DNA of 64,000 nucleotides from Paenibacillus sp. FSL W8-0426 (lineage in GTDB: Bacteria > Bacillota > Bacilli > Paenibacillales > Paenibacillaceae), in the NCBI RefSeq assembly GCF_037969725.1, contig NZ_CP150203.1, forward strand, positions 6,439,501-6,503,500. Reading direction: 5' to 3'. The position numbers were made by a program, and so were the translations under genes. Positions 4,671 through 42,505 of the stretch are shown one piece after another (position 1 is the stretch's first letter; each line of letters begins with the position of its first letter). The notes under the pieces are model-generated. The model did not search any database and was not told where the DNA came from. It saw nothing but the letters and a program-made list of their open reading frames with translations.

Positions 4671-4826
4671 ACGAATGTACGTATGCTCAAGAACACAGCA
4701 TCATTCCGTGGAAGAATGATCCTGCTGATGCATGGCCCGGAAGGGTCTGCCGGACGGACCTATGGTCCGCCCTTTTCCTGATCGTTCGTACACCGCTCCT
4801 TTCCGCGAAGGGTCCGGTGACACATT

Positions 4827-5022
4827 CAAGGTAGGTCTCCTGGCTCTGGTTCATCAGCTTCCTTTTCGTCTTCCCCGGTGAATCCGAGTGACTTATCAGC
4901 AGCAGCTCCAACGTCTGCGCAACCGATATTATTGAAAGGAGCCTCCCCATTACAGTGGCGGGACCGCTCGGGATTTGCACCCGATTCCCTGTTACCTCTT
5001 GCCTGAAAGCAAGAGCACCTTG
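4827..5022 (-). promoter_or_regulatory. Cobalamin (AdoCbl) riboswitch
   Basis: Read on the minus strand, the region carries the signature segments in order: GGTGCAAATCCC with GCGGTCCCGCCACTGTAA, then AGTCAC followed by GAAGACG, and finally the B12 box GCCAGGAGACCTACC (4830-4844). CAAGGT at 5017-5022 pairs with ACCTTG at 4827-4832 to close the P1 stem, which sets the limits given. It should repress the downstream cbiH60-cbiX-cbiJ genes when adenosylcobalamin is high. A short open frame that crosses this RNA is not a gene. Confidence 0.95.
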
Positions 5023-5148
5023 TCTGTTTTCATGTGATGATATTGTCTTCATCATACCATCCGTCAGGAAATGATGTCCATGCCCATGAAGGCCTGCATT
5101 CATTTAATTTTCCCGCCCGGACGCAATCCTTTGCCTGCGAAACTAAAA

Positions 5149-39383: not shown

Positions 39384-40482
<1,099 letters not shown>

Positions 40483-40515
40483 GTCTCGCATCGCCCCCTT
40501 AATCTTGAGGTTTAC

Positions 40516-40594
40516 CCTAAGAAACCTTATCCATTATACACGACTTTGGTTCAGCCATGTTTCGAATAAGGTTAATTTACCCCATTTTCTTAGG
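40516..40594 (-). promoter_or_regulatory. pot promoter region with nested inverted repeats
   Basis: A minus-strand TATAAT (complement at 40533-40538) is flanked by inverted arms. CCTAAGAAACCTTAT at 40516-40530 is mirrored by ATAAGGTT at 40566-40573 and TTTCTTAGG at 40586-40594. The symmetry around the promoter suggests sites for a regulator that bridges the two arms. No -35 box is clear. Confidence 0.5.
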
Positions 40595-40704
40595 ATTGGA
40601 AAGGCATTCCGGCACGGACTGCCCTAATGGATCGACTAGCATACGGACCATAGGAGTTCCAAAAATAATTCCAAAAACAGAATCGAACATGCGTTCCCAA
40701 AAGG

Positions 40705-40720
40705 TATAATATGGTATAAT
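40705..40720 (+). promoter_or_regulatory. Tandem -10 boxes before the small-peptide gene
   Basis: GGTATAAT occurs twice, ten bases apart (TATAAT at 40705-40710 and 40715-40720). No good -35 box is seen. Transcripts would have a leader of about 60 nt. Confidence 0.55.
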
Positions 40721-40784
40721 GAATGGGACAAAGCATCCGGTGGTACTACGTCACGGCGAAGATGCCCTGAGAGGGGGTGACGCT

Positions 40785-40913
40785 GTGTCGCTTGATCTTT
40801 TGGTGAAAATGCTGGACGTGCTGCTCAAACTGGTCGGTATTTCGGCCGGTTTGCAAACGTTAATCGGTCCGCGGAAGAAAACACGCAAAGTCAAGAAAAA
40901 CCACCGGCAATAG
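40785..40913 (+). CDS. 42-residue amphipathic basic peptide, candidate type I toxin
   Basis: GTG at 40785 follows GAGGGGG at good distance and opens a 42-codon frame. The first 27 residues (MSLDLLVKMLDVLLKLVGIS and so on) would form a hydrophobic, amphipathic helix with Lys and Asp spaced on one face; the last 14 are strongly basic (RKKTRKVKKNHR). The gene has its own -10 boxes and a terminator whose left arm overlaps the last codons. The leader CCGGTGGT (40737-40744) can pair with ACCACCGG at the 3' end (40900-40907). These features resemble type I toxin genes, though the sequence matches none I know; a membrane-active or regulatory peptide is the alternative. Confidence 0.55.
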   Translation: MSLDLLVKMLDVLLKLVGISAGLQTLIGPRKKTRKVKKNHRQ

Positions 40914-40938
40914 GTTGGAGCCCCACCCGGTGGTTTTT
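40896..40938. terminator. Terminator at the end of the small-peptide gene, usable on both strands
   Basis: AAAAACCACCGG/CCGGTGGTTTTT, 12 bp, loop of 19. It ends in TTTTTCAG on the plus strand and TTTTTCTTG on the minus strand, so it can end both the peptide mRNA and a converging antisense RNA. Confidence 0.8.
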
Positions 40939-40987
40939 CAGTGAAGTGTCGAAATCTCGCCGTGGTTGCCCACCGGCCGACTTTGTC

Positions 40988-41019
40988 AACATCCGCGATG
41001 TTCCCGCATCGCGGATGTT
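40988..41019. terminator. Second hairpin downstream of the small-peptide gene
   Basis: A perfect 13-bp stem AACATCCGCGATG/CATCGCGGATGTT with a 6-nt loop, followed by TTATG on the plus strand. It may be a backup terminator or the 5' stem-loop of an antisense RNA. Confidence 0.6.
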
Positions 41020-41046
41020 TTATGCTGCTACGGTTCTTATAGCACC

Positions 41047-41055
41047 AGTATACCA
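41047..41055 (-). promoter_or_regulatory. Possible extended -10 promoter for an antisense RNA
   Basis: On the minus strand TGGTATACT has the extended form TGnTATACT. RNA from here would run about 150 nt through the hairpin at 40988-41019 and end at the bidirectional terminator, overlapping the 3' end of the peptide mRNA. No -35 box is visible, so this is a suggestion. Confidence 0.35.
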
Positions 41056-41224
41056 CAATCGAAACGATGGGAACCATTTCAAAACCGATCTCGACCGCGC
41101 CGTTGATGCCAGTATTCTGATTTGGCCGATCGACGCATATGATGTCGGGGATATGTAAATATGTGTGCAAGGAAACGGTCTGAACGCATGGAGTGAATTT
41201 CCGTACTGCGGAAAGGAGGCACCT

Positions 41225-42505
41225 ATGGATCTTCGCCGTAATTTGCCGTTATTAATCGTGGTCTGTTTTCTCAGCCAGATGGGAGGATTCATGATTCTCC
41301 CCCTGTTTCCGCTGTTTATTGATGGATTGGGGTTGTCCAGCTGGACGATGGGAATCATCTTTGCCATGTTTTATGTCGGGAAAGTCATCGGAGGCATGCC
41401 CGCTGCCGGGTTGTATCGAAAAACGGGAGGCAAAACGTCGCTCATCCTCATGCTGCTGATGCTCGCGCTCTGCATGGCCGGCTTCGCCATGGCCTCCTCG
41501 GCCCTGCTGCTCGGCCTGCTGCGGCTGCTGCAAGGGCTTGCTTCTACCGGGCTTACCGTCACGGTGCGTTCGATCATCGGTGATGGCGGCAGCGAGCACA
41601 ATCGCGGGCTGTACAATGGCTATATCAGCAGCAGCGAGGGTGGCGGCATGGTGCTCGGCCCGGTCGTCAGCGGCTGGCTGGCGCTGCATTTCCCGCCTTC
41701 CGTGCCCTTTTGGCTGGTCACGGTTTGCTGCCTGGTCGCCATGCTTGCGGCCATGGCTATACGCAACACAACAACAAGTTCTAAGGCTGACGCCGGATCA
41801 TCGTCCAAAGTGGACGCTGCGATGCTACCCGCCGCCGCTTCCCCGTCCCCTGCCTCCTTTACGGAAACCGATGAAAGTGCCAACCGGGCTGGACTCCGCG
41901 GCGAGCTTACACCCAGCCAGCAGCTGTTCGGTTATAGCCTGGTGCATTTTCTGGAAATGAGCGCATATGCCGTCTTCTTGACCTATTTTGCACTCTATGC
42001 GACCCATATCATGCAATGGAACTCCTTCTCCATCAGCCTGGCCTTTACGGTCGTAGGCATTTCAACCTTGGCCGCAGCGCCGCTGGCAGGTTATCTCTCG
42101 GATCGCATGGGAGACCGCCTGCTGCTCTGCATGCTGGGCATGCTGTTCATCGGGGTGGAGGTCGCTGTGTTCCTGACGACATCGTCGTATGTCTGGGTAT
42201 ATCTCGGCATGCTGATCGGCGGAGTCGGCGGGGCATGTTATATGGACTCCTTTTTCGCGCACATCGGCGATCATATTCCGGAGACTGGCCGCAGTGAAGC
42301 CATCGGCAAAATCGTCTCGGCCGCAGAGATCGGCTCCATCGTCTCTCCGTTGATTGCAGCGCTGCTGGCGGAAGCCGGATCGCTGTACGCCGTCTTTTGG
42401 TTCAACCTCGCACTCATTGGTGCGGCGATCACCGTGCAAGCCTTCATGCGCAAGCAGCTTCGCACCGAACATTTGTCGTCCGAGAATGCACGCAGCAAAC
42501 AATAA
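41225..42505 (+). CDS. Major facilitator superfamily transporter
   Basis: The 426-residue protein has twelve hydrophobic helices in two halves joined by a polar, Ala/Ser-rich loop (about 183-225). The first half shows GIIFAMFYVGKVIGGMPAAGLYRKTGGK, the MFS A-motif region; the second shows APLAGYLSDRMGDRLLL, its repeat. It resembles drug or metabolite exporters, but no substrate can be named. The ATG at 41225 has AAAGGAGG upstream. Confidence 0.9.
   Translation: MDLRRNLPLLIVVCFLSQMGGFMILPLFPLFIDGLGLSSWTMGIIFAMFYVGKVIGGMPAAGLYRKTGGKTSLILMLLMLALCMAGFAMASSALLLGLLRLLQGLASTGLTVTVRSIIGDGGSEHNRGLYNGYISSSEGGGMVLGPVVSGWLALHFPPSVPFWLVTVCCLVAMLAAMAIRNTTTSSKADAGSSSKVDAAMLPAAASPSPASFTETDESANRAGLRGELTPSQQLFGYSLVHFLEMSAYAVFLTYFALYATHIMQWNSFSISLAFTVVGISTLAAAPLAGYLSDRMGDRLLLCMLGMLFIGVEVAVFLTTSSYVWVYLGMLIGGVGGACYMDSFFAHIGDHIPETGRSEAIGKIVSAAEIGSIVSPLIAALLAEAGSLYAVFWFNLALIGAAITVQAFMRKQLRTEHLSSENARSKQ

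Follow-up and report, generated by a model that had tools for sequence, protein, structure and literature searches.

A probable type I toxin-antitoxin locus with a new peptide toxin family in Paenibacillus

The analyzed stretch of DNA, hereafter the window, comprises 64,000 nucleotides (positions 6439501-6503500) of the single-contig 6.9-Mb genome of Paenibacillus sp. FSL W8-0426. The locus described here lies in a 733-bp intergene, between a minus-strand gene for an ABC-transporter ATPase (start at window position 40491) and a plus-strand gene for an MFS transporter (41225), both named from their translations. On the plus strand the locus consists, in order, of an extended -10 box, a 58-nt leader, a 42-amino-acid ORF with a GTG start, a hairpin (T1) over the last codons, a 3' tail, and a second hairpin (T2) with a T-run. 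Distal to T2, and read on the minus strand, lies the extended -10 box of a predicted antisense RNA. A cobalamin riboswitch elsewhere in the window (4813-5037, minus strand) was its sole Rfam match at the gathering threshold.

The plus-strand extended -10 box TGGTATAAT (40712-40720) is accompanied by a second -10 box, TATAAT (40705-40710). With +1 set 7 nt after the -10 box and the 3' end placed in the T-run of T2, the predicted toxin mRNA spans 40727-41022. Its leader X (40727-40758) can pair either with the 3' tail (40957-40987) or with the start region and the ORF end. Nucleotides 40750-40758 are the leader strand of a start-codon stem whose partner, 40781-40789, contains the GTG. The Shine-Dalgarno sequence AGAGGGGGTG (40770-40779) lies beside, and partly within, a small CCC/GGG hairpin that is paired in 98.5% of alignment cells. 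The putative toxin ORF (40785-40913), supported by comparison of relatives, encodes a predicted helix with a basic tail ending in KKNHRQ. T1 (40896-40938) has U-runs on both strands, and T2 (40988-41022, hairpin 40988-41019) is the predicted mRNA terminator. On the minus strand, the extended -10 box TGGTATACT (41047-41055) would give a predicted antisense RNA of ~150 nt (40891-41040), the candidate antitoxin, reaching to T1. A preliminary description of this DNA had named the -10 boxes of both strands, the Shine-Dalgarno sequence, the 42-residue ORF, T1, and a complementarity between leader CCGGTGGT (40737-40744) and ORF-end ACCACCGG (40900-40907); all are present where it had placed them.

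Conservation of these features was analyzed in relatives of the locus. From 69 distinct loci, 45 were aligned with MAFFT after duplicates and loci lacking an intact ORF by rule had been removed. The rule also excluded one locus whose ORF, by eye, is intact with a later start, and another of the 69, from a rumen metagenome-assembled genome (MAG), was taken as a chance match. The sense extended -10 motif was found in 40 of the 45 intact loci, against a mean of 0.4 and a maximum of 3 in 200 dinucleotide shuffles. The antisense motif, proposed earlier to give an RNA of about 150 nt, recurred in 32 of 45 (mean 0.87 and maximum 4 in 200 dinucleotide shuffles), and on the opposite strand of the same region in 4 of 45. 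In 40000-42000 a simple consensus scan detected no sigma-70 promoter in which both hexamers were present, and neither T1 nor T2 was among the three terminator-like sites it listed.

In all 42 loci examined the T2 hairpin is followed by at least five T in 9 nt on the plus strand, versus none of the 42 on the minus strand (loci L018, L034, and L082 were excluded from the T2, folding, and leader/tail analyses). Because of this polarity T2 was taken as the mRNA terminator; it lies 50 nt beyond T1, which brings the predicted mRNA to ~296 nt. The same polarity led us to reject the view that the 40988-41019 hairpin belongs to the antisense RNA alone, at its 5' end. Both RNAs had been thought to stop at one bidirectional terminator. 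T1 indeed has U-runs both ways and should end the antisense RNA, and part of the mRNA may also stop there, but this shared site is most likely not the only stop for the mRNA, which probably continues to its own T2. All but roughly the first 20 nt of the predicted antisense RNA would lie opposite the 3' part of the mRNA, in agreement with the overlap first described.

Similarity searches defined a small peptide family. Searching 5.8 billion proteins with the single sequence gave two matches, one of them the window's own protein, whereas a profile gave 39 at E ≤ 1, most of them with a Paenibacillus name; a Listeria sp. and a Bacillota MAG contributed one each to the 39. The closest named record is from Paenibacillus sp. 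JJ-223, and the Listeria relative belongs to strain FSL L8-0308. At E ≤ 0.01 the family occurs in 23 of 75 genomes of the genus and, in the search for such small frames that had been recommended for related genomes, in 48 of 394 genomes (6 of 19 genera) of the bacterial family; the window's own genome has one locus. Seven plasmid records, all Paenibacillus, carry the family, three of them typed as mobilizable, and all seven loci have a full ORF of 42-44 amino acids; the query here was a constructed consensus, of which the matched piece covered 62%. No match was found among 50,697 phage records.

The peptide had been called unlike known ones, and the databases agree. Four family members searched against Pfam and NCBIfam gave chance-level hits to PetG (E 0.1) and THEG4 (E 0.12), and no named toxin profile, Fst toxins included. 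Nothing credible was found among solved structures (best E 1.7) or PHROGs (best E 0.012, to a nameless family), and PADLOC returned no match. The Hol_Tox profile (PF16935) did not match the four members at E ≤ 10, while as a control it recovered four Hol_Tox loci of the same genome, and profiles of the two peptide groups do not align (hhalign probability 0.3%). Since neither the Hol_Tox nor the Fst profile matches, the peptides were filed as a new Gram-positive type I toxin family. Neither Pfam nor NCBIfam names this family, members of which are found repeatedly in genomes and plasmids of Paenibacillus.

Frame conservation with synonymous changes had been set as a check on the ORF. In 500 of 500 pairs of relatives (50-95% protein identity) pS exceeded pN, with means of 0.60 versus 0.26. 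The synonymous rate falls to 0.17 over the last 10 codon columns, where the ORF overlaps T1, which suggests that the RNA constrains the ORF end. The 45 aligned peptides are 41-44 residues long, with a mean net charge of 5.8. They are amphipathic (hydrophobic moment 0.47 versus 0.28 when shuffled), with p below 0.05 in 80% of loci and p of 0.07 for the window's own peptide, and 38 of 45 reach a 19-residue hydropathy of 1.6. Residues 2-41 are predicted to form a single helix, with a mean pLDDT of 77 and lower values in the tail. The gene thus appears to be a small-peptide gene under purifying selection, as a type I toxin gene would be, and we infer a membrane-acting peptide that does harm when present in excess.

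A basic, mostly amphipathic helix carried on plasmids would also fit a secreted antimicrobial or signalling peptide of the leaderless bacteriocin kind, with an mRNA that is structured incidentally and an antisense RNA that only tunes its level. We consider this improbable: the seven plasmid regions inspected have no recurrent gene for transport, immunity, or processing beside the locus, and Hol_Tox type I loci are laid out in the same way (see below).

The RNA itself is conserved beyond the ORF. Stems were scored on the MAFFT alignment of the 45 loci, which was not fitted to structure. The named mRNA stems were paired in 96.4% of cells, versus 29-53% when slid, and 25 cells were changed on both sides against a shuffle mean of 5.4. 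For the start-codon stem, 94.8% of cells were paired and both-side changes occurred in four of nine pairs; T1 was paired in 93.9% of cells with 14 changed on both sides (shuffle mean 1.5), and both-side changes affected 9 of 11 pairs of the T2 hairpin. Stems of the antisense strand were paired in 91.9% of cells and had 83 both-side changes versus a shuffle mean of 21; further pair types numbered 33 versus 35.9, below most shuffles.

The leader and the tail form an inverted repeat. Pairing within the mRNA predicts that differences between them are G-U compatible on the mRNA strand. Such differences numbered 81 for the mRNA strand versus 35 for the other strand, beside 69 others and 981 identities; they represent 40 distinct pairs among relatives that are not independent. 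Three leader/tail segments (a, b, and c) were paired in 79.6, 94.9, and 94.9% of cells as plus-strand RNA, and in 75.5, 89.9, and 85.1% when read as minus-strand RNA. Predicted leader/tail pairing was 0.51, versus 0.24 with shuffled tails, and exceeded all five of a locus's own shuffles in 38 of 42 loci. The fold-back proposed originally, leader 40737-40744 with 40900-40907, holds as a conserved complementarity (97.5% of cells) and was demoted as the main fold: in T1-ended mRNAs its mean folding score was 0.13, as the T1 hairpin wins. The leader, the 3' arm of T1, and the tail's complement are nearly identical versions of a single motif, and for this reason the covariation seen for the leader/ORF-end pairing does not identify the true partner. 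The folding models favor the 3' tail (40957-40987) as the probable main fold-back partner of the leader.

Inverted repeats at both ends of a short insert raise another reading, in which the locus is a small MITE-like mobile repeat whose termini are the leader and tail and whose gene and promoters are incidental. At this place, six relatives that lack the family were examined. In four, the two flanking genes are separated by 245-248 bp that contain no such locus, compared with 733 bp here, so that the locus was gained or lost at this site; in the other two the ABC gene was not found within the stretch inspected. Against the mobile repeat stand the single family locus in this genome, the purifying selection on the ORF, and the position of the sense -10 box, T2, and the antisense -10 box, which lie outside the repeats and yet are conserved. 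We therefore regard it as very improbable.

The consequences of antisense pairing for the toxin mRNA were explored by folding the 42 loci. Blocking the part covered by the antisense RNA lowered mean start-codon openness from 0.25 to 0.04. The start-stem score rose from 0.63 to 1.04; this score is one-ninth of a sum and may exceed 1. In 17 of 42 loci the full-length mRNA had a closed start codon even without blocking (openness below 0.1), and at the window's own locus the decrease in openness was limited, from 0.80 to 0.41, and the start-stem score reached only 0.25. Openness of the Shine-Dalgarno sequence was nearly unchanged (0.30 to 0.26). These models suggest that covering the mRNA 3' end would shut the start codon in part of the loci. 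An antitoxin that works as a leader mimic, binding the ribosome site, was also considered and found no support, since duplex energies were no better than those of shuffled copies (mean z -0.18, 45 loci).

A mechanism can be proposed from these predictions. In the full-length mRNA the tail would partly hold the leader. The antisense RNA would pair with the mRNA 3' end and remove the tail from the leader, which could then close the start codon, while RNase III would cut the duplex. In cells deprived of the antisense RNA, as when a plasmid bearing the locus is lost, leftover mRNA would be translated. The folding thus suggests an antitoxin that acts at a distance, as SR4 does on bsrG, probably together with duplex cutting by RNase III.

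Decayed copies were surveyed among 76 loci, the 69 above and the seven on plasmids. The ORF was intact by rule in 53, of which 46 had a recognizable antisense -10 box and 49 a recognizable tail. Nine of the 23 loci without an intact ORF keep the ORF end, T1, tail, and antisense -10 box. The converse, an intact ORF with the antisense module absent or disrupted, was seen in L018, L034, and L082, and four more intact-ORF loci, all of one clade, lack a recognizable antisense -10 box. In L082 the 3' arm of T1 and the antisense region are replaced, just after the intact ORF, by other sequence, which resembles an insertion-sequence end. These exceptions aside, the decay pattern broadly matches that expected of a toxin and its antitoxin.

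Orphan 3' halves, with T1, tail, and T2 and no toxin ORF, follow the same conserved gene in five genomes, and four further ones were seen elsewhere. That ORF-less halves persist in several genomes would suit a regulatory RNA pair without a toxic peptide, the ORF encoding a harmless membrane peptide. Yet the five orphans at the shared place have, by eye, also lost the antisense -10 box and therefore look like remnants, and a harmless peptide does not accord with the purifying selection on the ORF; we give this reading very little credence.

The layout is not confined to the new family. The genome of strain FSL W8-0426 encodes four small ORFs of the Hol_Tox family, the model that also covers bsrE, at genome positions 1140543 (+), 1555088 (-), 870799 (-), and 5737041 (+). 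In the first three, leader and tail can form a helix, T1 lies at the ORF end, and T2 is followed by a T-run; the antisense motif TGTTATAAT is clear in two of these three. In folding, which covered these three, the leader/tail helix scored 0.48-0.52 versus shuffled means of 0.13-0.24, with at least one of 20 shuffles exceeding the real value at L128. The fourth locus looked different by eye. Hol_Tox peptides here are without the long basic tail.

An RNA model (R1) built on the antisense region of the new family matched 54 of 75 genomes of the genus at E ≤ 0.01, E-values being rough. A Hol_Tox ORF in convergent orientation abuts at least 11 of the 88 weaker R1 matches, one of them in the window's own genome; this is a lower bound from 15 Hol_Tox rows chosen by eye for shared contigs, and four further weaker rows that overlap orphan halves were excluded from the 88. 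R1 also matches orphan 3' halves and two loci, L158 and L160, that have a similar RNA layout and encode a different basic peptide containing LYRW, which gave no useful alignment with the new family. L160 is in a second genome of the window's species. Separately, a weak R1 match of ~33-37 bits and similar length recurs in more than a dozen genomes at what looks like one orthologous place.

The shared layout is likely a scaffold of common descent on which the toxin diverged or was exchanged; the same layout might conceivably have originated independently in the new family and Hol_Tox. We advance a stronger version tentatively, with somewhat less than even confidence: one RNA scaffold (leader, T1, tail, T2, and antisense promoter) would carry at least three unlike toxins, the new family, Hol_Tox, and the LYRW type of L158 and L160, the RNA switch being inherited and the toxin exchanged, and the leader would switch among three partners, the start codon, the ORF end, and the tail, with the antitoxin setting the switch from the far end. 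A passage of PMC6562991 already suggests an exchange between BsrG and BsrE/H at one locus. The layout common to Hol_Tox makes toxin exchange on a shared RNA scaffold directly testable.

We conclude that the locus is very probably a type I toxin-antitoxin system with a new toxin family, a judgment based on sequence comparison. Its conserved elements, as judged from the alignment, comprise the peptide gene, its promoter, the start-codon stem, the leader/tail complementarity, two predicted terminators, and a convergent promoter for the predicted antisense RNA. The toxin-antitoxin reading was the one offered at the outset, and plasmid carriage, ORF-less loci that keep the antisense part, and the Hol_Tox-like layout now add to it. 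The peptides would extend the Gram-positive type I systems by a toxin family that recurs on plasmids and chromosomes alike, and the 45 intact homologous loci are a natural alignment for testing how a 3'-bound antitoxin can close a start codon 100-200 nt away.

Loci like txpA and bsrG are reported for one Paenibacillus species in PMC6562991. The accessible parts of mostly open papers on type I toxin-antitoxin systems, small RNAs, and holin-like toxins in Paenibacillus, the last represented by a survey of P. larvae phages, do not describe the family, and the main text of a P. riograndensis RNA-seq paper (PMC5670726) has no word beginning with "toxin".

According to the relevant sections of PMC6562991 and PMC4147584, the convergent RNAs of bsrG/SR4 and txpA/RatA pair at their 3' ends and the ribosome site lies in a stem, as is predicted for the new locus. 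The bsrG/SR4 overlap is given there as ~120 nt, with an SR4 effect that reaches far from its binding site (PMC6562991, PMC4147584). The same parts of PMC6562991 describe B. subtilis toxin mRNAs of this kind as closing their ribosome sites, with SR4 at the bsrG 3' end closing the site further. The likeness to both pairs that had been suggested is apt, given the convergent 3' overlap, the start-region stem, and the basic amphipathic peptide, and a predicted 3'-end overlap of convergent RNAs with a closed ribosome site places the locus beside txpA and bsrG. The difference is that here the start codon, and not the Shine-Dalgarno sequence, is predicted to be closed. Sequence likeness of the peptide to TxpA and BsrG was judged indirectly, from the absence of a Pfam/NCBIfam match.

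The Fst/par system of pAD1 has, as far as its accounts in PMC4147584 and PMC6562991 extend, convergent RNAs with a shared 3' terminator and a GUG start, as predicted for the new locus, and plasmid carriage occurs in both families. In Fst/par, direct repeats pair the two RNAs and block the ribosome, whereas the repeats here are inverted and would pair within the mRNA; no Fst/par-type direct repeats were found at the locus, and the duplex of the antisense RNA with the mRNA 5' region was no better than shuffled. A long-distance interaction between the 5' and 3' ends of the full-length toxin mRNA is likewise described for hok/Sok and aapA/IsoA in the portions of PMC6733600 on these systems. In those systems the long-distance helix closes the Shine-Dalgarno sequence and 3' trimming activates the mRNA, whereas in the new locus the helix is predicted to compete with the start-codon stem.
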